In this document: piece after piece, positions 14,714 to 59,164 of the stretch
How positions within the stretch are numbered: the stretch's first letter is position 1
How the letters are laid out: each line of letters starts with the position of its first letter
Origin: Medicago truncatula
Taxonomy: Eukaryota; Streptophyta; Magnoliopsida; Fabales; Fabaceae
NCBI RefSeq assembly: GCF_003473485.1
Contig: NC_053044.1
Coordinates: 53,174,091-53,238,090 of the forward strand
Direction of reading: 5' to 3'
DNA length: 64,000 nt
Position numbers and translations under genes: made by a program
The notes under the pieces: generated by a model
Told to the model about the DNA's origin: nothing
Seen by the model: only the letters and a program-made list of their open reading frames with translations
Databases searched by the model: none

Positions 14714-17700
14714 TTAAATTCTATTGCAATAGGTACCACCCTTTGTTGTGCTAGTCGTGTGCAGTGCTACTAAAGAAGCATAGGTACCACTCTTGTTGAG
14801 CAACGTTTCATGCTTTCCTTTCTCTTCAATCACTCCATTTTTAACCACTGCAATTGAATTTGAACCCTTTATGGTAGATAGTCTATGAGCCACCACAATG
14901 GTGGTTCTGTCCACCCTCAATCTATCAAGTGCATCATGAACCACTTTTTCAGACTCAGCATCAAGTGCACTTGTGGCTTCATCTAGTAGTAATATTCTTG
15001 GATTCTTAACTATGGCTCTTGCAATTGCCACACGTTGCTTCTGTCCTCCAGAAAGTTGTATCCCTCTCTCCCCTACTATTGTGTCATACCCCTGCATATG
15101 TTGTTTTTCAACAATTCAGAACCTCATAAGCCATGCTACACAAATAGCTAGTTATTTGAAATATTGGAATTCACATGTTTGTTGCAAACTATGAAATAGT
15201 CACACAGACATTGAATATGACTTCAGATCGATGACGTGTTTAGTGACATGTGTAGTGTCTGACACCGACATGGTTACATTCAATCACTTTAATTTCTTAA
15301 ACTATTACAAGAGTGTTTACGTATTAGTGTCACTATCGTGTCCGATGTTTGTATTTGAGTTGGTATTTATCATAGATTGTGTGTATTTATTTACCTGCTG
15401 CAAACTGCTAATGAACTTATGAGCATTTGCAAGTTTTGCTGCAGCTATAATTTCAGCCTCAGTTGCATTGCCACCTTTTCCATACGCAATGTTGGCTCGC
15501 ACGGTGTCATTGAACAGCACAGGCTCCTGGGTTACCAGGCCCATTTGCTGCCTAAACCATCTAAGTTGTAGCTTTTGGATTTCTGTTCCATCCAGTTTAA
15601 TCTGACCAGAATCTGGATCATAAAATCTTTGCAGCAATGATATCACTGTTGACTTTCCACTTCCACTTTCACCTACTAGAGCAACTGTCTGATTTTCAAT
15701 AGATGGATTGTTTGATAGTGAGTTCTTGTGAGAATTAAAGCATTAACCTAATACATAATTTTTTAAGTTACCTGTCCTGAATGAATGGTCAAAGAAAGAT
15801 CTTTGAATATATGAACATCAGGTCTAGTTGGATACTTGAAAGTGACATGATGGAACTCAATATCTCCCTTCACATCTTCCAATGTCATTCCTGATTCTTC
15901 ACTAGAGTCTATTTTTGATTCCTGATCAAGAATAGCAAATATAGAAGCAACAGAGCTTTTTGCTTTACTAGCTCCTACAGCCATGAATCCAGATTGAGCT
16001 ATTGCGACGGCTGCCATTGTGAGAGAGAAAAACACCTGAAAATTAGGAAATTAAATGCTTGATGCTAGAACAATGTGATGAATTCAACTCTTATAAATCC
16101 TTGTTGCTTTGTATATATTTTTTTTGAAAAACATATTAATCTGTTTTAGAATTAGCTTATGCTTTGTAAGTAACAATTGACATAAGTAAAAAACTTAAAT
16201 TTGGACAATTCTGAACTTTGTCCTCTATATGTGACATAGCATCCAAGTTTGGACAATAACTTACTTGAAAAACATCTGATATTGAGGTTTTGCCATTCTT
16301 AACAAGTTGTGCTCCAGCATAAAAACTGCATGCATAAACACAGAACATAAAGAAGATTGATAAGCCAAAACCAACTCCACTAACTATACCCTGCCTTTTT
16401 CCTGTCTGTACTGGTACTACACATTTCTTTTGGTATAACTCCATCACCTTCTCTTCAGCACAGAAAGCGGAAACTGTTCTGATATTCCCTACTGCATCAT
16501 TCGCTACTTGACTTGCTTCCTCATACTGTTTCTGTCAAACATATATAGAGCATAGTAACATCATGTCAAATGGAGATTAGTACTAATTAAATATATAAAG
16601 CAAAATATGTACTAAATAAATTTAGACATGCTTTGAGACGAGAATTGAATCACATTTGTGTGTATAAGGCACAAACCCTTGCATCTGTGCTGAATCCTTG
16701 CATGGATTTGATTTGTAAATGTCCATTTACTAACAGTAGAGGTAGCAAAACAAGAATGATGAGAGAAAGCTGCCAGCTAGTCTCAAAGCCAATTACCAAG
16801 GCTGTAATTACAGTGGCAATATCTTGAACTAGCAAACCGAGTGCATCCCCAACCAAAGTTCGAATCGAAGCAGCATCGGTTGACAGCCTTGCACCAAGTG
16901 CACCACTTGAATTCTCAGCTTTATCAAACCATCCTACTTCCATGTGAATTATTTTCTCAAAGCACATTAACCGGATCCTTTTTATCAACTTAGAACCAGC
17001 AACAGCAAAAAAGTAGGACCTTAACGGCTGAAAAACGAATGAAGCCACACTAAAGAACACAAACATTAATGCCCAAAAATTCACATCTTTACGAAGTTCA
17101 TCTGCAGGCTCAAAGAATGTATTTATCATCTTGGAGACTAAAAGTCCCAGAATAGGTTGCATTGCTCCAATTACTGCTGCTGCTAGAGTCCCAATGAGTA
17201 GCGCCGGGATTTCAGGCTTGTTAAGATAAGCGAGACGAAGAAATGGGACATCTGGAGTCTTACTTTTATGTGATGCTGCTGCTGAAGGAAGAAATTCAGA
17301 CACTCCTTCTAGTGCGGTAGGCCTAGACTCTCTTCCAGATTCTACAAATGTTTCTAGCTTATCTGAGTCATTAGCACCATGCTGTTCTGATGAATCCTTT
17401 TTAATTTCTTGCAGCCTAATGAGCTGACTATAAGCTCCATCAGGATCATTGGTGAGCTCATCATGTGTACCTAATAACCAGTTAGAAGATATATGAATGC
17501 TTCATTGCAAGTGTCAAGGAAAACTAAGCAAATTGCCATACTGAGTTTCATTTTTCTACTACTTTTAAGAAAATTACTGCAGTATACCTTTTTCTACTAC
17601 TTTTCCTTGGTGAATAACGGCAATGATATCAGCATTCCTTATTGTGCTTAGGCGGTGGGCTACAATGATCATTGTTCGGTTTATCATAATTCTTTCTAGC

Positions 17701-20218
17701 GTCTCTTGTACCACTCTTTCCGACTCTGCGTCAAGGGCACTTGTTGCTTCATCTAGGAGTAGAATTCTTGGATCTTTCAGAATTGCTCTTGCTATAGCTA
17801 TTCTTTGCTTTTGGCCTCCAGAAAGTTGAGCTCCATGTTCGCCAACCATCGTGTCAAGTCCCTAAATTAATAATTTTCATGAACTAATAAGGTAAAAGGT
17901 ACATAACATGTAATGAACAAACATATACTAAAAAATGGTCTCCAGTATTGTATAATTTGAAACTGATGTTGAGATCTCACATGGGGAAACTTATCAATGA
18001 AGATAGCAGCTTTAGCTAGTTCTGTTGCAGCTCTGATTTCTTCATCTGTTGCTCCATCCTTACCATAGGCAATGTTCTCTTTAATGCTACAAGTAAAGAG
18101 AACTGGTTCCTGACTGACTAAGCCTATTTTTTGTCTGATCCATTTCAGTTGAAATTCTTTGAGGTTGATATTGTCAATGAGAATTTCACCACCCTGTGGA
18201 TCATAAAATCTCTCTATCAAACTAATAACCGTCGATTTCCCACTCCCACTTTGTCCTACCAAAGCCGCGGTAGTGCCACTTGATATTGAAATAGAAAGTG
18301 CATCGAATATCATTTCATTTGGCCTTGAAGGATAACCAAAGCAAACTTCCCTAAGTTCTATATCTCCAGAAATATCATCCAGCTGCCTACCAGCAGTGTC
18401 ATAAGCATCAATATTTGGCTGCCTCTTTATTATCTCAAACATTTTAATGGCGGCAGCTTGTCCAGCAGCAAATGCAGTTAAGCTCGGAGATGCCTGTCCT
18501 AGAGACCTGGAAAATAAAATTAGCTCAGAGAAAGTGATATATGTAAGTGTATTTTGTTTGGAAAAACCAGAGATGACCGTCCCTATAAAGCCAGTATCAG
18601 ATAACTAGGCCGACCAGAAAATACAATTTCACATCGCACTAACAATGACAGATAAATAAATATCAGAGACACCAGAATTCCACAGGTTATAAATTTTAAG
18701 ATATGTAATAATGTATGGACACACGGTGTAGATGATATATATAGCAGAAACTAACTTAACTTACAAGGAACCTGTCAGTACTGCAAAAAATACACTTATG
18801 ACTTCCCCTCCTGTATAACCTTTCGCTAATATCATCTTCCCTCCAAACCATACAGCCAAAGCATAACTACAATAAACAAATAAACGAACCAAGCCGAGGC
18901 CTAAACCAATAGCCAATCCCTCTTGCAGTCCAATTATGTAAGATTTAGTTAATGATTGATTGTATTGAGTTATGGCCTGCTTCTCACCAGTAAATGATGC
19001 AACCTTGCGTATTCGAGTAATTGTGTTAGCTAAAGATATGAAAAGGAATAAAAAATAGTAAAAGGTTCTTTATGTAGATTGGCGTACTGTTCGAATTGAA
19101 CCAATTATCCGGTCTACTATAGTTGCTGCTTCAGAATATGCTGCTTGTCCTCGGGATGCCATCTTTGCGAAAGCAAAGCTCATTATGGAACCAGAGAGGA
19201 CAAGAAGAGGAAGAGAAGATAGAAGGACAAGGCTTAGAAGCCAACCCTTGATGAATGCAACAACTAAACCTCCTAAAAAAGATGACACATACTGTATGAA
19301 TTTTCCTACCTGAGAAGATATCACCCAAAAAAGGAAGAATAAGCTATTATCCTTAAAACTTGTTATCATAGTTAGATCAAATGATTATGCATTAATAGAA
19401 ATACCTTCTCTCCCATGGCATCTTGAATAAGAACTGTGTCACCTGATATTCTTCCAACAACCTCAACACTGTTTGTTTCCCTGTCAAAGAAGCTTATATC
19501 TTGCCTTAAAATTGCTTTGAGGTATAAGGCCCGTATTCTTGCAGCTTGTCTCTCCCCGGTGACCATCCAACATGCCACCTCTGCAAGATTTCATGCATAA
19601 GTAACTCTCGTTATTTTAATCTTAAGGTAAACTATATATATAATTTTCTAGTTATAGCAAGTTGAATTATACTACGAAAGAAAATTGGCATGCTTACGCA
19701 GAAACGCTGCAAAAAAGGCGCCTGCACCCATGATTGCAAACTTGAGAGACACCTGAGCATGAAATGAACCATGGAGAATTATTAAATGAAAACAAGAGAG
19801 TTTGAAAACCAAATTGTTCCCCTAAAAAATAAAATCAATTCCGGTTGAAGGGGAGCTAGTTGTTTGTTACCTTGGAAACTAGATGAACTACTTGGTTGGT
19901 GTTAACATTTCCTCCAAAAGCATCAATAGCATCTCCAATAATTATAGTCAGTAAAGGCATAGAGACTCCATTCCCAACAGCACCGATAGTCCCAACAAAC
20001 ATCAATAAATAATCCCAAGAGTCTGCAAATGAGAAAAGCTTGTAAAAGGGTACTGTTTTCTTGCTTTGATCCTTCACCTTGTTCTTCTTGGAATCTTGGC
20101 GCATGTCAGCCATTTCTTGGCCATTTTCATGACCTGAAACTGGTAGATGATGATGATTTGTTGACCCTGTCATCTCAGTTGCAGTAATATCTCCGTCCAA
20201 GCTAGCCTTGGCCAACAT
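14714..20218 (-). CDS. ABCB (P-glycoprotein/MDR type) full-size ABC transporter
   Basis: Twelve exons (high to low coordinate): 20218-19871, 19752-19698, 19580-19405, 19309-19088, 19003-18765, 18506-17981, 17861-17588, 17470-16677, 16531-16265, 16035-15772, 15688-15395, 15091-14714. All phases agree and give 1278 residues, normal for the family. Order is TMD1-NBD1-TMD2-NBD2. NBD1 (about 400-620) has Walker [10 protein letters not shown], signature LSGGQ and Walker [17 protein letters not shown]2 (about 1020-1260) has [14 protein letters not shown] and the same Walker B. The linker (about 620-690) is acidic and divergent. The sequence is closest, from memory, to the Arabidopsis ABCB4/11/21 clade of plasma-membrane exporters, some of which move auxin; substrate here is unknown. 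An upstream in-frame ATG at 20263 would add 15 residues. I chose 20218 because [10 protein letters not shown].. fits an acidic cytosolic N-terminus. No disabling change seen. Confidence 0.93.
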
Positions 20219-24809: not shown

Positions 24810-27800
24810 TTATGCATCATATTTAGCGACACTTGACTTGGGCTCAAAATCCTTCTTTTCCTTAACATCAGTAACATGGTCTCCATAAAGAAAAAAGTTA
24901 GGTCTTGGTTTAAAATCATCGGTGATCACCTTGTCTTCCTTTGCATCATTACCATTGGCTCGATAAAGAAAAAAGTTAGGTCTGGGTTCAATATCTTTAG
25001 TGCCAACCGTATTTTCCTTTGCATCAATCTCATTGTCACCATTAAGCAAAAAGTTAGATTTTTGTTCAAAATCTTTAGTAGTCCTCTCATTTTTCTTTGC
25101 ATCAACCTCGTTTTCTCCATAAAGAAAAAAGTTAGGTCTTGGTTCAAAATCTTTAGCCGTCCCCTTGTTTTCCTTTGTATCAACCCCTTTTTCTCCATAA
25201 AGAAAAAAGTTAGGTCTTGATTCAAAATCTTTAATGGACCCCTTGTTTTCCTTTGTATCAACCCTTTTTCCTCCATATAGAAAAAAGTTAGGTCTTGGTT
25301 CAAAATCTTTAGTGGCCTCCTTATTTTCCTCTGCATCAACCCCATTTTCCGCATACAGAAAAAAGTTTGGTCTTGGTTCAAAATCTTTAATGAACCCCTT
25401 ATTTTCCTTTGCATCTACCCCATTTTTTCCATAAAGAAAAAAGTTAGGTCTTGGATTAAAATCTTTAGTGGCCCCCTTGTTTTCCTTTGCATTAACACCA
25501 TTTTCTCCATAAAGAAAAAAATTAGGTCTTGGTTCAAAATCATTAGTGGCCCCCTTGTTTTTCTCTGTATCGACCCTTTTTTCCCCATACAGAAAAAAAC
25601 TAGGTCTTGGTTCAAAATCTTTATTGACCCCCCTGTTTTCCTTTGTATTAACCTCTTTTTTTCCATATAGAAAAAAGTTAGGCCTTGATTCAAAATCTTT
25701 AGTCGCCTCTTTGTTTTCCTCTCCATCAACCCCATTTTCCCCATAAAGAAAAAAGTTAGGTCTTGGTTCGAAATCTTTACCGGACCTCTTGTTTTCCTTT
25801 GCATCTACCCCATTTTCCCCATAAAGAAAGAAGTTAGGTCTTGGTTCGAAATCTTTACCGGACCTCTTGTTTTCCTTTGCATCTACCCCATTTTCTCCAT
25901 AAAGAAAAAAGTTAGGTCTTGGTTTAAAATCTTTATTGGCCACCTTGTTTTCCTTTGCATCAATCGCATTGTCTCCGTAAAGAAAAAAGTTAGGTCTTGG
26001 TTCAAAATCTTTATTGGCTCCCTTGTTTGCCTTTGCATCAATCTCATTGTCTCCATAAAGAAGATCATTAGGTTTTTGGGTCTTGAGATTCTTTTTAGCA
26101 TTGTTGTTAAGGAGTACTTGAATATCTTCTTTTGTATCTCGGTCTTTCATGACAAGTTTTGAGTGTGTTCCTGGATCTTTTCTTGATTCCATAGTTGTTG
26201 CAAACTATACACACACAAAAATGAAGACAGCGAAAAATTTAATGATGCACATGTGTTTATAACATCAGTGTTGCTATCTTTCAAAATAGTTATGAAAGTT
26301 TTTAAAAAATGGGAAAGAGAAAATTATTATTAATTAAAGTGTGACGCAAATAACCATTTTACAACCACTCTTGATAATATTTGAGTTTTTTCTGCTTGAG
26401 CTTTCATTGTCAAGCTATTATTACCACTAGGCTGATACCTTGTAGATAAATAGCTATGTGAAGTATTCTCATCAAAGGTTTGGACTTCATTAATTCTTAA
26501 TTACATTATTTTTTTATATGATATTCGATAAATTTCAAAGCACATTAATTATTTTTTTACTGAACTACATTCTCTTAAGAGTTAAATAAGTTTTTGTTGC
26601 TTAAAAATATAATGAATTTTGATTTTAGTATTTAAAAAATAAAACGGGATGTTTTCATTCTCACAAAATTTTCCGTTTCATTTTTTTTATCTCTAAGATA
26701 AATAATTTTGACATGTCTTTCATATTTCTAGAATATAATATGACCATAAGAAAGTTGGACATAATAGATTTGCATAACTTGAACATAAGTGTTCATAACC
26801 TTCACATTAATATTAACATAAATTGATCATTAAGCGCAAATAAATAAATAAATAATTGGAAAACGAAAAACATTAATTTTATTTTCAGAAGGACTAAAAT
26901 CAAAATTCATAATATTTTGAGAGACAAATCATGCATGAATTAACGGGGGAGTTTTAACTTGTGATAGACTAATCATGCATGAGAATATGTTAGACTCACT
27001 CAAGTAAATTTAAATTTGGTCAAAACCAATTATTTGACTGGTTTAATGAACCGGACCGAGTCCATACCAAAACAAATCATTGACCTCCTTTTTCATTCCC
27101 TTTTTTATTCTATGTTCCCTTTGTTTGAAAAAGGTGATGGAAATAGAAAGTTGCTGGAAGCAGCTTGTGTGGAAAAAAGAAAGGGGCGTTCAACATACGG
27201 ACAGACAGAGATAAGAAGCATTTGTTCAACACTCTTATAGGGAACAAAAGGAGATATATAGTGTGGTTTGGAAGATATTGAAATTAAATTAAGTAAACAA
27301 AATGAAATAGAGGTATTGTATAGCTACGGTAAGGAGTTGGTTTCTTTATTAGAGAATCTCTACTCTTACTCTTATATCGTCAATCACCAAGTTGGTTTTT
27401 AAAGCATAACTGAAGTTGCACCGTCGAAGAAAAAAATGCTAACAAATGTTTTCAAAGAGATATTGTTTAAATAACTAAAAATTCTAACTATTAAATAAAA
27501 GTCGTGTAATTATTATTTTTATTTATGTTTGACTTATACTTTTAAGATAAAATTTTCTATAATAGAATTTTTAAACAATGTTCTTAGACATTTGTTAACA
27601 TGATCCAAAAAGAGAAACAATTGTTTAATTGGTTAAGATATCAATGTTGGTTGCACCATAGACGTACTCTTAGTGGTTGGCTTTATTAATAAGGATAAGA
27701 GAGTGGGTGCCCTTAATTTACAATATAGATTAACAAGACCTAAGCAACTGTATTTAAGTTGTGTCCTATGTTTCCTAAAAAAAAAAGGTGTGTCCTCTGT

Positions 27801-35544: not shown

Positions 35545-36445
35545 ATGGGAATAAATTTTATATCTTGGATCCTCCTTCTTCATCTACTAGTAATCCTACT
35601 GGTATGTTAAAAGTTTAAGTTAACTTGAAACTCCGTTTCTCTTTTTATTTTAATTATTGTTACTTTTGCAGTGTTCTCATGGAGACCAAGCGAGGGAAAT
35701 TCAAAAAAACCATCATGATCATAATCATATGAGTCATAATATTGATCCTTCACTAATGGTTTTCTTCACTTTGAAAGATTTGAAAGTAGGGAACATAATG
35801 CAAATTTATTTTCCTAAGAGAGACCCATCAACTTCCCCTAAGTTATGGTCCAAACAAAAAGCTGAATCACTTCCTTTTTCATCAAACCAACTCTCATATC
35901 TTCTCAAATTCTTCTCTTTCTCTCAAGATTCACCTCAAGCAATGGCCATGAAAAACACTTTAAGAGAATGTGAGAGTAAACCCATCAAAGGAGAGGTAAA
36001 GTTATGTGCTACCTCTTTTGAATCTATGCTTGAATTTACACAAAACGTTCTTGGTTCAAAATATGAAATCCAAGGTTATGCAACTTTGCACAAAACCAAG
36101 TCAAGTGTTACTCTCCAAAATTATACTATAGTAGAAATTCTAAAGGAAATTCTAGCTCCCAAAATGGTGGCTTGTCACACTGTGCCTTACCCTTATGCTG
36201 TTTTTTATTGTCATGGCCAAGAAAGTGATAATAGGGTGTATAGAGCTTCATTGGTTGGTGAGAATGGAGATAAGGTGGAAGCTATGGCGGTTTGTCATAT
36301 GGATACATCACAATGGGCACCAAGTCATGTTTCATTTCAAGTTCTTGAGGTTACACCAGGAACCTCTTCTGTGTGTCACTTTTTCCCAGCGGATAATTAC
36401 ATCTGGGTCCCTAAATTGAAATCACAAGGTTCTTCTAGGATGTGA
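35545..36445 (+). CDS. BURP-domain protein, USP-like
   Basis: Two exons, 35545-35601 and 35672-36445, joined in phase (CTACTG|gtatgt .. tttgcag|TGTTCT), encode 276 residues. Residues 1-19 are a hydrophobic signal peptide. A short His/Asn-rich spacer (KNHHDHNHMSH) follows, then the BURP domain from about residue 45 to near the end. It begins with the FF pair (VFFTLKDLKVG) and contains the diagnostic CHX10CHX26CHX25CH pattern. The short spacer without repeats places it with USP/BNM2-type proteins rather than RD22 or PG1-beta types. Members are secreted or vacuolar and expressed in seeds or under stress; biochemical role unsettled. No disabling change is seen. Confidence 0.92.
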
Positions 36446-47424: not shown

Positions 47425-47496
47425 TGCGTTTGCCGGGAGTCGAACCCGGGTCTATTGCTTGGAAGGCAATTATCCTAACCGTTGGACTACAAACGC
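47425..47496 (-). tRNA. tRNA-Gly (anticodon UCC)
   Basis: The 72-nt minus-strand sequence folds as a cloverleaf. The acceptor stem is GCGTTTG/CAAACGC with discriminator A, the anticodon arm ATTGC-CTTCCAA-GCAAT has TCC at positions 34-36, and the T arm is CCGGG-TTCGACT-CCCGG. Internal A (TAGTCCAACGG) and B (GGTTCGACTCC) boxes are intact. A T6 run (minus strand, 47415-47410) ten bases downstream can terminate Pol III. No CCA is encoded, as expected for a nuclear gene. Confidence 0.95.
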
Positions 47497-48985: not shown

Positions 48986-51900
48986 ATGGAAGGTGGTGAA
49001 CTGAGAGTGGCGAGTGGACGCGTAGGGAGCTCCAGCATATGGAGAAGTGGTGCAGTTGATGTATTTTCAGGATCGTCAAGAAGGGATGATGATGAACAAG
49101 AGCTTCAATGGGCTGCTATTGAGAAGCTTCCGACCTATCTACGCATGACTAGAGGTATACTGAATGAATCACAAAGTGAACAGCCTATAGAGATTGATAT
49201 CAACAAACTTGGACCACTGCAGAGGAAGAATTTAGTGGAGAGACTTGTCAAGATTGCCGAGGAAGATAATGAGAAGTTCTTGTTGAAGTTAAGACAACGC
49301 ATTGATCGGTATGTATGCTACCAACTTATCTAGCACCGACATTTCAAATTGAATGCATGTTTATTGCGTTGATTAAGATAGGACATTTTCTTAAATTATA
49401 AACAAATTCCGTGTCTGTGTAAATGTTTCTAACGCAGTACTAACTTGAGTTGTTGTTTTGTGTCTGTGTTTGTTCTAGTTTTGAAATGAATCTTAAAGAA
49501 ATTATGTAAGGTTTTAAGTAGTGGTTGCATCGTAATTCTTGATATTTGTGTTGAATTACTGTCAAATGCAGTTGATACAATATTGGTTGTGGTTGCGAGA
49601 TATAAAAAATCGACGATGTTTTGGCCAAATAGTGATAATGTACCATTTTTTGAAACTCTGGCATCATGTGTAGAGGAATTTACAAGTTTGTGTAATTTTG
49701 TTCGTTTCATGGTTCAGGGTTGGACTTGATTTTCCGACAATTGAAGTCCGTTTTGAGCACTTGAATGTTGAAGCAGAAGCTCATGTGGGAAGCAGGGCAT
49801 TGCCTACAATCCTCAACTTCTCCATTAATTTGTTGGAGGTAGTCATAACAAAAATTTTGGAATTGGATGTTTTGCTATCCCAAAAAAATCCTTTTGAAGC
49901 AGAATATACTGACAAGCTCTAATGTTTATGTATTTGTGCTCTCTTTTTGAAGGGATTCCTGAATAATCTTCACCTTATCCCGAGTCGAAAGAAGCCGCTA
50001 ACGGTTCTTCATGATGTTAGTGGAATAATCAAGCCTAAAAGGTAAGACAACATTGCCTTAGTGAAATTCACACGATTGACAGAAAATATCTATTTCTCAA
50101 TTAACAATTTGTTTTGCCTGTTGCAGAATGACACTGCTCTTAGGTCCTCCAAGTTCTGGAAAGACTACATTGTTGTTGGCACTAGCCGGAAGACTCAGTA
50201 GAGATCTAAAAGTAAGCACATGTGACATTCCTTTTGTTTCAGAAATTATGTTTCACAATCATAATTCATTCATTTCCAATTTTCCATTGATGATTAATTG
50301 CAGTTTTCGGGGAGAGTTGCGTATAATGATCACGGGATGGAAGAATTCGTACCACAGAGAACATCAGCTTACATAAGTCAAACTGATTTACACATAGGAG
50401 AACTGACAGTGAGAGAAACATTGGCCTTTTCAGCAAGGTGTCAAGGAATAGGAACTCGTTATGGTCAGTAATATAGTCCTTTGTTGTCTGTACAATGAAG
50501 GGTTATGTATTGTCACTTACATTTGATTGAACTGTTTTTCAACTTTGTGCAATCGGAAGATATGCTCGCAGAATTATCAAGAAGAGAAAAGGCTGAAAAC
50601 ATTAAACCAGATCCTGATCTTGATATTTATATGAAGGTAAGATGAGATAAAGATTAGATAAATGTTAATAGACCTCTATGCATAATGAATAACTTGGAGA
50701 TAAAGCTAACCTGCTTAATTTTCAGGCTGAAGCACTAGAAGGCCAAGAAACCAACATAGTTACAGATTATATAATTAAGGTAGAAAATCCAGTTCATCAA
50801 ATTTTTAAAGATGACTTTAGGATAAAATAAGGAAGAATCTCATTTTTTTCCTGTTTTAAAACATTTGGCAGATTTTAGGACTAGATGTTTGTGCTGATAC
50901 CATGGTAGGAGATGACATGATTCGAGGTATTTCGGGTGGACAAAAGAAGAGAGTCACAACTGGTAAAACCATAAATCTCATTATCTGTGTAATACTAATA
51001 TGAAATGAAGTGTTTATGTTTTCATTTGTGTTTTGTGAAACTCAAGATGTGACTATGAGCTACAGGTGAGATGCTAGTTGGACCAGCAAGAGCGCTTTTC
51101 ATGGACGAAATATCGACTGGTTTGGACAGTTCAACAACATTTCAAATGATTAATTCACTAAGGCAATCCATCCACATTCTGAATGGAACAGCTCTTATCT
51201 CTCTTCTACAGCCAACACCTGAAACTTACGATTTATTCGACGACATAATTCTCCTCTCAGACGGACAAATTGTGTATCAAGGTCCAAGGGAAAACGTCCT
51301 CGAATTCTTTGAGCATGTTGGTTTCAAATGTCCAGAGAGGAAAGGAGTAGCAGATTTTTTACAAGAAGTACTTTTTCTTAGCTTCATTAGACTCTATGAC
51401 TTGTTTTGCACTTTTCACCTTTAATAGAAGACACTATACTTATCTCTTTATATGACAGGTAACTTCAAGAAAAGATCAAGAACAGTACTGGTCAAATAAA
51501 GATAAGCCATATACCTTTATCACTGTTAGAGAATTCGCTGAAGAATTTCAGTTGTTTCATGTCGGTCAAAAACTCGGTGATGAACTTGGTACTCCATTTG
51601 ATGCCTCCAAAGGCCACCCTGCCGTTTTAACCAAAAACAAGTATGGTGTGAGCAGGAAAGAACTCTTAAAAGCCTGCGTATCAAGAGAACTCTTACTTAT
51701 GAAAAGGAATTCGTTTGTCTATATTTTCAAGATGTGGCAGGTAAACACAAACCGATCAAAAAAACCTTACTTGATCATTCATCGGTGTTATTTACACTAG
51801 ATTCATGTTTGATTTCATTTGTTTTCAGTTGATCTTCACTGGCATCGTAACAATGACAATGTTCCTACGAACTGAGATGCACCGGAATACTGAAACAGAT

Positions 51901-54900
51901 GGTGGGATCTATATGGGTGCTCTATTCTTCATACTAATTGTAATTATGTTCAATGGATACTCCGAGCTATCGATGTTCATAATGAAACTCCCAGTTTTCT
52001 ATAAGCAAAGGGACCTTCTGCTTTTCCCTGCTTGGGCATATTCTTTGCCTACTTGGATCCTTAAGATTCCTATAACCTTTGTAGAAGTTGGTATTTGGGT
52101 TGTGTTGACTTACTATGTAATCGGATTTGATCCATGTTTTGAAAGGTGGGAATATTGTTTTTCCTTTGGTACGTAGATTCCAAACATAATATTCTCCAGT
52201 CTGCTAAACACAGTTGGATCATTTGCTTTACTTGTAGGTTCATCAAACAGTACTTTTTGCTAGTTTGTATCAACCAGATGGCATCTGCACTTTTTCGATT
52301 TATTGGCGCAGTTGGGAGGAATGTTATTGTTGCAAACACAGTTGGATCATTTGCTTTACTTGCAGTTTTGGTCATGGGTGGATTCATCCTATCGAGAGGT
52401 GAAGTGCAACTTGTTAGTGCCGTTTGTTATCGAAGATGCATACTTTTTGTTTCAATGTATTATAATATCAAAAGCTCACTGAACTATGTTCTTATGCATC
52501 AGTTGATGTGAAGAAGTGGTGGTTATGGGGTTACTGGGTATCCCCAATGATGTATGGACAAAATGCTATAGCTGTGAATGAATTCCTTGGAAAAAGTTGG
52601 TCCCATGTAAGCAAGCAATATAATCACACTTCCATGAGTGAAAGATCTTACATATACAAGAATACAAATATGACTAATGAAGAGTTTCAATCTGTGTCTG
52701 ATAATACATGAATACCTTTTCATTGCAGATTCCACCTGATTCAACAGAACCATTAGGAGTGCAGATCTTGAAGTCGCGTGGGATTTTCCCTGAAGCATAC
52801 TGGTATTGGATTGGAGTTGGAGCTTCCATTGGATACATGTTACTATTCAACTTCCTTTTCCCTCTAGCCTTACATTATCTTGACTCTAAGTATCCAATAT
52901 ATTATATGTGGTTGTCAGGTTATAAAATTGATAGTTCTCTTGGTAACAAATGAAACATTTTATTGCAGCATTTGGTAAACCGCAGGCTTTAATATCAGAA
53001 GAAGCATTGGCTGAGAGAAATGCTGCCACTGCTGGAAGCAAACAGATTATTGAACTGTCGCCTAAATTGGAATGTTCGTCAGGTGAGTTACAATTAGCTT
53101 ACTAAACTTCTTCCTATTTTACTTCACATGTTAATTCACTGTAAGATGATTGATATAATTTTGATGTAACAAAAGGAAATGCAAGTCGAAGAAGTTTTTC
53201 TTCAACGACGCTATCAACAAAGGTAGGCAGCATTAATGCAGCTGATCACACTAGGAAGCGGGGGATGGTTCTTCCTTTCACTCCCCTTTCTATCACTTTT
53301 GATGAAATCGGATATGCCGTGGACATGCCGCAGGTACAAGAATTAGCTTCAAACTTCAAAGGAACTTTTAAGTGGATAATTCCACTATCAAATCATCAAC
53401 TTGAAATGTAGTGGTCATTTCTATAATGGAGCATTAGAAGTGTTTGTTTGGATTGACTTATTTAAGCTTACATACTAACTAGCATAAACACTAGTGAGAC
53501 TGTTTAGGAGAGCTTATGGAAACAACTTATGAGATGTCCATAAGCTTTTTTTAGCTTCTTTACGTAAGAATTCAAAGATAGCTTACGAAAACAACTTATA
53601 ATTCCTACGAAAACAATTAGACTTTATTTTATTTTTTATTACAAAAATAGCTTATACATAAACACTTATATGATAAGTGTCTATGCTATATAAGCGCTTA
53701 ATTAAGTTGTTTATTCAAACAGGGCCTGATTCATCCTGCATGCACATAGCATAATATAGTGGTTGCATGTGAAGCTTACCAAAGTTACACACTCTGAATA
53801 AAACAAGCATAAAAAAGTGACAGTAAATTTACACTCTCCTTACTGATATATTTCTAATAGTCTCCCTTTAATTTGTGCTTGCTTGTAGGAAATGAAAGCC
53901 AAAGGTATTCCTGAAGATCGACTTGAACTTTTGACAGGTGTTAATGGAGCTTTTAGACCAGGAGTTCTGACAGCTCTAATGGGTATAAGTGGAGCTGGTA
54001 AAACAACTCTAATGGATGTGCTGTCTGGAAGGAAAACAACAGGATATGTTCAAGGACAAATCACTATATCCGGGTACCCTAAGAAGCAAGAAACATTTTC
54101 TCGGATATCAGGATACTGTGAGCAAACTGATATCCACTCTCCCCATGTTACTGTCTATGAATCTCTTGTTTATTCTGCATGGCTCCGGTTACCCCCCGAG
54201 GTTGATACTTCTACAAGAAAGGTAAAGTTTGTCAATTTTGTGTTTCTCTTTTACTTTGTAGATAAAATCAGAGTATATTAACAAGACATGCAACACACAC
54301 CACTAATTTCAGATGTTCATTGAGGAAGTTATGGAGCTGATAGAGCTGACTTCAATAAGAGAAGCGCTTGTTGGATTACCTGGTGTGAATGGTCTGTCCA
54401 CAGAACAGCGCAAGAGGTTAACGATTGCAGTTGAACTTGTTGCCAATCCATCTATTATATTCATGGATGAACCTACCTCTGGCCTTGATGCAAGAGCTGC
54501 TGCTATAGTAATGAGAACAGTGAGGAATACAGTGGACACAGGGAGAACTGTTGTCTGCACAATTCATCAGCCTAGTATTGATATATTTGATGCTTTTGAT
54601 GAGGTCAGAGACCCTTTTCCTTTTTTTTCTTTCTAAGTTGTTAAAAAATAGTGTCCCAAGGCTGAACATCTATCTTGTAAATTACAGCTACTTCTCTTGA
54701 AGCGTGGAGGAGAAGAAATATATGTGGGGCCATTAGGCCGACATTGTTCTCATCTGATCAACTACTTTGAGGTCACTATCTCTAATTTTTTACTAATAGT
54801 CTAATGCTAAATACTTAACATATTATCAATCAGTTTTTTCACCAAAGCAAAACTTACCTGCTTCGTATAGGGAATTAATGGAGTGCCAAAAATCAAGAAT

Positions 54901-56466
54901 GGTTATAACCCTGCCACTTGGATGTTGGAGGTTACTTCAGAAGCACAAGAAGAAGCTCTCGGAATTAACTTCGCCGAACTATACAAGAACTCTGACTTAT
55001 ATAGGTAAGACAGGAAAAACTTGTAAATTAAAGCACATTCCATAGATTATCATCTTGAATCCATAATGAAGCTTGGAAATAAAATCTGCTCTTTAAGGAT
55101 ATATGGTTTATTAAGCCATATTGTATAATTACATTCAGGACAAACAAGGCCTTGATCAGGGAACTAAGTACTCCTCCAGAGGGTTCTAAAGACTTGTACT
55201 TCACAACACAGCACTCTCAGTCTTTCTTAACCCAATGTATGGCTTGCCTTTGGAAGCAGAACCTATCGTATTGGCGAAATCCCCCATACAGTGCAGTGAG
55301 ACTTTTATTCACAACGGTCATAGCCTTCTTGTTCGGGACAATATTTTGGAATATTGGCTCAAAAAGGTACCAAGCCATGTTCCTGACTCGTTTCTGAGTT
55401 GCTGTTCATTATACCTTTGCTTATGTACTATTGTAATGCAGGGAAAGAAGACAAGATCTATTTAACGCGATGGGGTCCATGTACGCTGCAGTGCTCTTCA
55501 TTGGGGTACAAAATGCTACATCGGTGCAACCAGTTGTAGCCATTGAGAGAACAGTTTTCTATAGAGAAAAGGCTGCTGGAATGTACTCAGCATTGCCATA
55601 TGCATTTGGACAGGTATGCATTAAGTTTCTTGATCACGAAATGGCTAAGGAATGTTAACTTTTATGAATAAACCATCAATTTATCCTTAAATTATCATTA
55701 TCTCTCTAATTAGCTAGGTTCATGGTAGTTTAGTGACTAAATTGAAGGTTTATTCTAAATATTAGTGAACAGATAAACTTTTTAATTAATGAATACTAAT
55801 TATATGAAGTTGAGAGAATGAAAACTGTTTAGAAAACTTACCAGATTTGAAATATTCAGGTTGCTGTTGAGATCCCATACATACTCATACAGAGCCTTGT
55901 ATATGGGGTTATAGTGTATACCATGGTTGGGTTTGAAAGGACACCTACCAAGTTCTTTTGGTATCTCTTCTTCATGTTCTTCACCTTTCTATACTTCACC
56001 TTTTTTGGAATGATGCTTGTCGGTGCTACACCAGATCACAATGTTGCTGCTATAGTTTCCTTTGGCTTCTACTTGCTATGGAACCTTTTCTCAGGATTCG
56101 TTATTCCCCGAACCGTAAGTTTCATTGTTCCTTTCGCTTCAAATTTAATATTAGACCATGCAAGTGTAAACATGTAAGTTAACTCGGTTAAAATGTTTTA
56201 TATAACAGAGGATGCCGGTATGGTGGAGATGGTTTTTCTGGATTTGTCCCATCTCTTGGACATTATATGGCTTGATTACAACACAATTTGGTGATGTTAA
56301 CGAACGTATGGATACTGGAGAGACAGTGGAAGAGTTTGTTAGGAGTTATTTTGGTTACAGAGATGATTTCAAAGATGTAGCTGCAGCTGTGGTTGTTAGT
56401 TTTTCACTGATCTTTGGATCTGCCTTTGCTTTTTCAATTAAGGCATTTAATTTCCAAAAAAGATAA
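48986..56466 (+). CDS. ABCG full-size transporter, PDR type
   Basis: Twenty-four exons, starting 48986-49308 and ending 56209-56466. Intermediate exons include 49718-49838, 51066-51367, 51829-52145, 52238-52398, 52729-52918, 53889-54221 and 54313-54603. Every junction is GT..AG and phase-consistent, giving 1460 residues. Order is NBD1-TMD1-NBD2-TMD2, the reverse order typical of PDR proteins. NBD1 has Walker [10 protein letters not shown] (near 184), signature [14 protein letters not shown] and Walker [19 protein letters not shown]2 has GISGAGKTT (near 908), [43 protein letters not shown] proteins are plasma-membrane exporters of terpenoids, phenolics or hormones; substrate unknown here. Odd points: the usual exon-14 donor is mutated (52886), so a cryptic donor adding 11 residues is assumed, and exon 12 is partly duplicated into intron 11. 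The gene may be functional or a weak allele. Confidence 0.9.
53439..53724. mobile_element. MITE in ABCG intron 16
   Basis: About 285 bp. The left end reads tgtttgtttggattgactta, and the right end, inverted, ccctgtttgaataaacaact. The interior has 'ataagcgcttaattaag' and inverted 'cataagct' blocks. A fragment of the same family is at 20323-20390. The ends resemble TGTTTGG-type hAT/unclassified MITEs; no clear target duplication was found. Confidence 0.6.
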
Positions 56467-56843: not shown

Positions 56844-59164
56844 TTATTTTGCCAAGCTATCCAAAAAGCTTTGCAACTCCTTCAAACCTTCAGCAGAGAA
56901 GCTCCTGTGCACTCTGGAGCGTGGTGCTACCAAATTCGGTGGAGGCTGCTGCTGAAAGCAAACCACAACAACCGCTAAATTGTCTCCACTTTTTCTCTTC
57001 AAGGCCTCATCAACCAGATCCTTGCTGCAAACAGCTGGGTCGTTATGCTCCTGAAGCCTGCGCCGTGCAAAATCTACAGCATTTTGGCTTCTAAAAACAT
57101 CCCAAATCCCATCGCAGCCTATGATGAGAAATTCGTCCTCGGCAGTAAGTTTTGTAGTCATGAGCTCAGGCTCTGCACTGAGTGGTCCACCATCTTTGCC
57201 TTTCATTCCTTCCATGTGCCAGTCACCAATAGCTCGAGCAACATTAAGTTGCCCGTTAAGATACCCATCGTAGACAGACCCCCCAGATGCCTCGATACGC
57301 CTCTGCTCTTTCATGCAACCTGGTTTGTGGTCTCTTGACATGTCAATTGCTTTTCCACGACGGCACAGCACTGCTCGACAATCTCCAGCATTTGCCACCA
57401 CCAACAACCTACAGTCAGAAACTACAATCAGCATGCAACTTATCACATTATCACATGTATGTATATGATGTCATGTCAGAGCAAGAGCATGAAAATGGAA
57501 ATATGGGCCAACTTTTGTAGCAGACCAAAAAGATCCCAAACCTCAATTAGATTTATGTCTTTCGTACTTCCAAAAAACACAGTAAAAAAAATAATCATAC
57601 TTTTGGTGCTAATTTAAAGAAGAAGAAAAGGATATATGCTCAAATTATTGAATATCAAAATCCTGACCTTCCTATAACAAGAGTGGCCAAAGCAGTGGTG
57701 CCGGATGCAAGGGCAGCATTGAGAGAACAAGCTTCCGCAAATGCATAGTCTGTTTGCAGAAAGGCGGAAGCAACTATCCTTTCAATATCCACTGGGAAAT
57801 CTTTATCCTCGAGAATGAACTTTGGCAAATGATTGCAAGCAAAGTCAGCAGCATGCTTTCCACCGTGCCCATCAAACACCTGACCAAGCCATTCGACATA
57901 TAACGTTACTTGACTTTTCTAAGCAGTTTAAAAACAAATGCAAGCAACATAAATAAACCTATCTATTCTTGTCAGCTGTAAAAACTCCATAGCTAGTAAA
58001 GGCGCATCTAATATGTGTTTATGCACATTGGTCCACACCAAAGGTAAAGCAACACCAATTATAAAATAAGATTAGCATGTGAACTAAGATTTGCAAAGAA
58101 CTTCCGAAAGATGCCATCAGATGTGCAGAACATGAGAATGAAAAAAGACAACGGAGGAAAAGAGAATAATGGCACATGAGGATGTCAACGAATAAAAAAT
58201 CATGAAGAAAAAATGAAAATCCATTCCAACAACTATCATATCAGTACTCCAATCAAGATAAGCGCCAAGGAGAGAGAGAGAGATATATACCCCATAGAAA
58301 GCACTTGGTCCATCTATATGTTTGTTGAGCCCATGGCCCTGCCTAAAATTGTCAACACAAACATACACATCCTCCATATTTGACCGGAACCCTATATCAG
58401 CACATCCTCCGGAACGGAGCTTTGGAAGGAAATCAGACTGGAAACCTTCAGTAACATCCTCAGCAGATACATCAGACAACTTCATTTTCGTCTGCTGATT
58501 TTTCCGTGAAAGAACACATCAATAAAATGAAGAAAAAAATTGTAGAAAGATGAACTTTTTTCAGTGCAGAAATAAACTTATACTACTCCAGAAATAACCC
58601 TACTAAAACTGATAATCAATAATCAATCCTAAAGTTGCAAACTGAACCCACAAAACATAATCAACAGCTAATCATAATGAGATGAATAAATCATAATGTT
58701 GTTGCCGTCTAATTTTCAACTTCCCCAATCTCTCTTTCCCAACAAAAAATTCCTTCTATTCTAGTCCTAGATTCTATCTACATTAAATACCAAACCAAAG
58801 CTTAAACTATACGCTCTCAGTACATCAAAGTGACAAATGGAAACAAAAAAAAGGAATGAAGTTAAAAAAGTAGAAATGAAGATAAGAATCATTTTAAGAA
58901 AAGTAATAAATGCTGTAATAACTGTTCCAAAACAAGAAAAGTAACATCATTATCACAATGAAAACACAAGACACTAAAAAACAAAGATTCGTTTCTTACA
59001 AGAGAAGCGTGGCGAACAAGAGATTTTCTGCATGGTAAAACAAGAGGATCATTGCGTTGACATTGACGAAAAGCAGAAGCAATAGATGAATTAGGATTTG
59101 GAGGTCGAGTCTCACTAGAGCTTCTACCTTCACTGAAACAATTCACACCTTCAATTTCTTCCAT
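56844..59164 (-). CDS. Protein phosphatase 2C
   Basis: Four exons (59164-59000, 58491-58291, 57879-57668, 57408-56844), all phase-consistent, encode 380 residues. The PP2C catalytic domain starts near residue 85. It has GFRSNMEDVYV (first metal Asp), VFDGHGGKHAA, SGTTALAT, ANAGDCRAVLCRRG, SRDHKP, VARAIGDWHM, EFLIIGCDGIWDV and GDNLAVVVVCF, so all metal-binding residues appear intact. It removes phosphate from Ser/Thr with Mn2+/Mg2+. The ~75-residue N-terminus (Ser/Pro/Arg-rich) and short C-tail carry no clear targeting signal. From memory it is closest to the Arabidopsis PP2C27/49-type proteins, not the ABA co-receptor clade A. The exon-2 acceptor could also be 3 bases upstream (cag|CAG), which adds one Gln. 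Convergent with the ABCG gene. Confidence 0.92.

Follow-up and report, generated by a model that had tools for sequence, protein, structure and literature searches.

Apparent loss of the intron 14 splice donor in a probable strigolactone exporter gene of Medicago truncatula

Strigolactone export has been published for MtABCG59 of Medicago truncatula, though not for the allele described here (PMC7019051). The gene is also known as MtPDR23, MtPDR1 and Medtr3g107870, the last of which is named MtABCG59 or placed under PDR1 in the available text of two further papers (PMC11035146, PMC5316927). The genomic clone of MtABCG59 is given as 7,500 bp; MtABCG43/44 correspond to MTR_1g011640/50, and MtABCG44 is 71% identical to MtABCG59 (PMC7019051). 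In protoplasts, a GFP fusion built from the genomic clone localized to the plasma membrane, which means that the cloned allele gave protein; the accessible part of that paper names neither the accession of the clone nor the length of the protein, and its text describes the fusion as C-terminal, yet gives the construct, in pMDC43, as GFP-MtABCG59 (PMC7019051). The available portions of the literature that we found on the gene make no mention of a splice defect in MtABCG59. Mutations at position +1 of plant donors and rare, reference-specific non-canonical splice sites are known, and the case described below is likewise a one-base departure from GT-AG.

The DNA analysed here, hereafter the window, is a stretch of 64,000 nucleotides (C3:53174091-53238090) on the third contig of the assembly, which we take to be chromosome 3 of M. 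truncatula. It contains an ABCG gene that is very probably MtABCG59, an identity that we infer rather than read from an annotation. Its span of 7481 bp is similar to the length of the published clone. Two paralogs at C1:2.19-2.20 Mb, L014 and L029, share 70.9% and 72.6% identity with the window gene over 23 and 21 exons, respectively, and by location and identity they fit MtABCG43/44. Among the full candidates, identity to the window gene ranks L029 (72.6%), L027 (71.9%) and L014 (70.9%), and the highest summed score belongs to L010. Among viral contigs and genome contigs, relatives were represented by pattern matches, none of which was confirmed.

The gene lies on the forward strand (48986-56466) and is a complete full-size ABCG (PDR) gene with 24 exons running from ATG to stop. 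Exon boundaries were set by hand at splice-like sites. In this model the 22 introns other than intron 14 are GT-AG and 75-555 nt long, the stop codon at 56464-56466 is reached in one open frame, and the coding sequence of about 4.35 kb has no frame-breaking indels. The predicted protein has 1449 amino acids if exon 14 ends at 52885 and 1460 if it ends at 52918, and both frames are open. Both NBD-TMD halves are encoded in a single frame, and a pair of Walker A regions and a pair of signature regions can be read directly in the translation. An 842-residue part of the protein finds its best matches among solved structures in fungal pleiotropic ABC efflux transporters. The acceptor of intron 11 seems, from the sequence, to derive from a short duplicated piece of coding sequence: the 3' end of the intron including the acceptor TTGTAG (52206-52237) is a 31/32 copy of exon 12 sequence at 52334-52365, 128 bp downstream, and no similar copy was seen in those paralog introns 11 that were displayed.

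Other features of the window include a protein phosphatase 2C exon (56847-57470, minus strand; PF00481, 176.3 bits) that lies tail to tail with the ABCG gene, and a tRNA-Gly gene with anticodon tcc (47425-47496, minus strand). There are also a BURP-domain protein (35654-36442, plus strand; PF03181, 265 bits) and a 464-residue stop-to-stop frame on the minus strand (24813-26204) in which a tandem repeat of 78 nt (26 residues) recurs about 15 times and which matches the Pfam family Organ_specific (PF10950) at 334.8 bits. Open frames of an ABC transporter at 14717-19384 on the minus strand, of which two were scanned and both carry ABC_tran, probably belong to a full-size ABCB.

The canonical donor is missing at a conserved exon boundary, the start of intron 14. 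Sequence and paralog comparison place this boundary at 52885/52886, where the window reads T/CTAAGTAT (the slash marks the end of the exon), so that the hexamer at 52886-52891 on the plus strand is a disabled donor, CTAAGT. It differs from GTAAGT by one mismatch, and a site within one mismatch has a chance of about 0.7% at one fixed position. Paralogs were sought in the same genome (429.9 Mb, 42 contigs); 21 PDR regions were taken and 20 gave an exon 14 match above the score cut. These 20 full-size ABCG/PDR loci share the exon boundary, its phase and the flanking residues with the window gene. They differ from it in that 18 carry GT where the window gene has CT (17 C/GT, one G/GT), with the hexamer GTAAGT or GTGAGT in 15 and GTAAGA in three, and that the other two, L012 and L028 (both on C2), have no intron 14 at all; their exons 14 and 15 join exactly (..LG-P-FDKP..) and have no 11-residue insert between them. 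The 18 GT-bearing loci were taken as having kept the intron; because exon 15 is poorly conserved, both intron ends were checked in L014, L018 and L029. Taken together, the 18 GT donors and the two intronless loci indicate that the ancestral donor stood at 52885/52886 and that the base at 52886 (C3:53226976) has changed. The preliminary description of this sequence had reported a GT-to-CT loss at 52881-52920, and the stretch does read as it was quoted there. It had also attributed the loss to a single base, which is correct in that the change at 52886 alone abolishes the donor, but 52885 departs from the family consensus C/GT as well, making two adjacent altered bases (CG to TC, 52885-52886).

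We compared exon-exon junctions across the family, taking their positions from the window gene, leaving out any pair in which one of the exon ends had over six unaligned residues, and admitting gaps down to about 20 nt. The resulting 353 junctions from 21 loci comprise 328 with GT-AG at the exact place, nine with GC-AG, none with CT at +1 and +2, and 16 with neither GT-AG nor GC-AG. In our reading these 16 reflect shifted boundaries or wrong pairings, which leaves no clear donor defect among the 353. The shortest of the 328 GT-AG introns is 69 nt.

The ancestral exon 14 (52729-52885, plus strand, ending in phase 1) follows from the paralog boundaries and from the plant segment after the first membrane domain, Pfam PDR_assoc (PF08370). 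In a 178-residue piece of the protein with exon 14 at its ancestral end, and hence without the insert, this segment is matched over its full length (1-65 of 65) at 101.9 bits; with the 11 extra residues the match falls to 89.6 bits over 1-57. The next in-phase GT is the cryptic donor CAG/GTTATA at 52919-52924. As had been claimed, it lies exactly 33 nt on, and the interval 52886-52918 (30% GC) is open in frame; together with the codon that starts at 52885 (residue 775) it would add a net 11 residues. That these residues are not normal in relatives is likewise borne out, since the intronless paralogs read through the junction without them, and they are thus not part of the family.

Beyond this, the preliminary description offered two readings, an assembly or base error and a fresh mutation with splicing rescued through the cryptic donor. 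Such a rescue is not favored by the analysis, so that the overall interpretation was half right: the donor is lost, and in-frame rescue is unlikely. Joining 52919 to the native acceptor of intron 14 (52959-52968, TTTATTGCAG) would leave an intron of 50 nt (52919-52968), below the family minimum of 69 nt. For plants in general, the minimum intron length is given as 56 bp in the accessible text of PMC6310983. Intron 14 has two YTNAY-like sites, one of which is 6 nt from the acceptor, while the other, with its A at 52931, is 12 nt past the cryptic donor. The acceptor is strong, its percentile among the acceptors of the family being 98.2, and the cryptic donor scores 7.3 in the family matrix, the 37.5th percentile of 328 donors, compared with 6.21 (18.9th percentile) for the intron 14 site with G restored at +1; in a matrix built from the gene's own 22 donors this order is reversed (3.54 and 4.39). 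The cryptic donor is therefore decent as a 9-mer, and it is mainly the intron length and the branch-point spacing that speak against rescue.

We enumerated 50 donor/acceptor pairs between exon 14 and exon 15 that keep the frame, and the pair of 52919 with the native acceptor scores highest. Another pair joins 52919 to 52999 by way of a cryptic acceptor, TTAATATCAG, at 52989-52998 within exon 15; its 80-nt intron is in frame and would yield 1450 residues. Exon 15 (52969-53082, 114 nt) runs from phase 1 to phase 1 and can be skipped in frame, in which case donor 52919 could pair with the acceptor of exon 16 (53176-53333). The product is in frame with 1422 residues, a length computed as a join to 53083, which gives the same coding sequence as the exon 15 skip. 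Retention of intron 14 leads to a stop after residue 796. Several other candidates were rejected. Donor 52778 is in phase but stands at the 0.3 percentile and would delete most of exon 14, and donor 52943 leaves only 26 nt of intron. A U12-type donor at 52890 (GTATCCAAT) agrees at 7/9 positions with the U12 donor consensus, but by reading of the sequence its phase does not fit the native acceptor, and a join between them runs into a stop immediately. Skipping exon 14 breaks the frame, with a stop after residue 729; skipping exons 13 and 14 together keeps it (1362 residues) at the cost of 87 residues.

The closest other copy of the window gene is a scrambled pseudogene on chromosome 6, L042 (C6:3764898-3767163, within G000:C6:3761500-3771400, minus strand). 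An 831-bp query against the assembly found a single full-length match, the locus itself, among the 31 matches listed. L042 holds fragments of exons 3-10, 14 and 15, partly duplicated. We polarized its differences from the window gene using L014 and L029 as outgroups, over 362 codons for copy A and 183 codons for copy B. In copy A, the ratio of nonsynonymous to synonymous changes is 8:11 on the window side vs 42:14 on the pseudogene side (Fisher p = 0.012; 36 of 111 differences unpolarized); in copy B it is 7:5 vs 20:7, which is not significant (p = 0.46; 15 unpolarized). The copy A sequences suggest that the window gene has been constrained for most of the time since it split from L042, and given such constraint one would expect the loss of the donor to be either recent or tolerated, or else an error.

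On the ancestral base at 52886 the pseudogene is silent, because an insert of about 1.3 kb sits exactly on its exon 14 donor. By our reading of its ends, the insert contains a solo LTR. A C at +1 common to L042 and the window gene was rejected, as the C in L042 belongs to the insert: five of the six other copies of the inserted stretch extend to query position 96-98, past the C, and the sixth ends at 74. Within the 33-nt segment, 6 of 30 aligned sites (20.0%) differ between L042 and the window; the corresponding figure is 13.1% for the other introns (105 of 799 sites) and 10.0% for the coding sequence. L042 also has no cryptic AG/GT. These differences do not suggest an old coding use, although they concern a short segment.

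A change at donor +1 normally blocks splicing. We consider the best explanation, at a probability of roughly one in two, to be a real +1 substitution that disables intron 14 and results mostly in retention, with a minority of transcripts spliced in frame. The C at 52886, where the family has G, would then kill the intron 14 donor of an otherwise intact gene. If the base is real, most transcripts would keep intron 14, with translation ending after residue 796, and would give half a transporter or enter transcript decay; a minority may be spliced from 52919, either to 52999 or, with exon 15 skipped, to exon 16; the product with 11 extra residues and a 50-nt intron would not be expected as the main form. 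Long-read assemblies generally have low substitution-error rates. It appears slightly likelier that the sequenced accession really carries a young allele than that the base is an error. An error of assembly or base calling, in which case the plant would have G at 52886 and a normal intron 14 of 83 nt, is nonetheless a serious contender, if a tentative one. The gene reads intact elsewhere and copy A of L042 suggests constraint; apart from a single base, everything is consistent with a normal donor, and 83 nt falls within the 75-555 nt of the neighboring introns. The accessible text of PMC6310983, moreover, points to sequencing and assembly as potentially major reasons for non-canonical sites being inferred in error. 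Against an error stand the departure of two adjacent bases, not one, from the family consensus, the absence of frame-breaking indels from the coding sequence as modeled by hand, and the junction comparison, where the nine GC-AG sites and the 16 apparent shifts or wrong pairs leave no clear donor defect.

The remaining explanations keep the gene working and are all improbable to differing degrees. The least doubtful of them holds that the donor-dead allele is real and the gene active by way of 52919 to 52999, an exon 15 skip, or a 50-nt or CT-AG intron, so that strigolactone would be exported by an altered or reduced transporter. Slightly less credit is due to a real mutation in which donor 52919 is joined to the native acceptor to give the 1460-residue protein. 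Such a junction is in phase, has no stop and is the best-scoring of the frame-keeping pairs, but it demands an intron shorter than any of the 328 family introns and YTNAY-like sites crowded against one splice site or the other, and L042, with no AG/GT and a 33-nt segment more diverged than its other introns, likewise speaks against it. Removal of a CT-AG intron at the old boundary, which would give a near-normal protein with serine at residue 775 in place of the proline of most paralogs, is very unlikely. In its favor are an unaltered donor from +2 to +6, a strong acceptor and the existence of minor non-canonical combinations, which the available text of PMC6310983 puts at about 0.09% of the validated splice sites in plants. 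Against it, CT occurs at none of the 353 family positions. As for the GFP fusion, pMDC43 is an N-terminal fusion vector. An N-terminal GFP would label a truncated product too, so the localization of the fusion does not decide between these modes of splicing.

The loss of a donor is an ordinary kind of event, here in an interesting gene. The general lesson is that a cryptic donor should not be taken for a rescue until the length of the resulting intron has been examined. If the base is an error, a well-studied gene needs a one-base correction. If it is real, the gene models at this locus would be wrong, and the reference sequence of a model legume carries a damaged allele of a gene for the exporter of a mycorrhizal signal, which would affect the reading of work on mycorrhiza and parasitic weeds in that accession.
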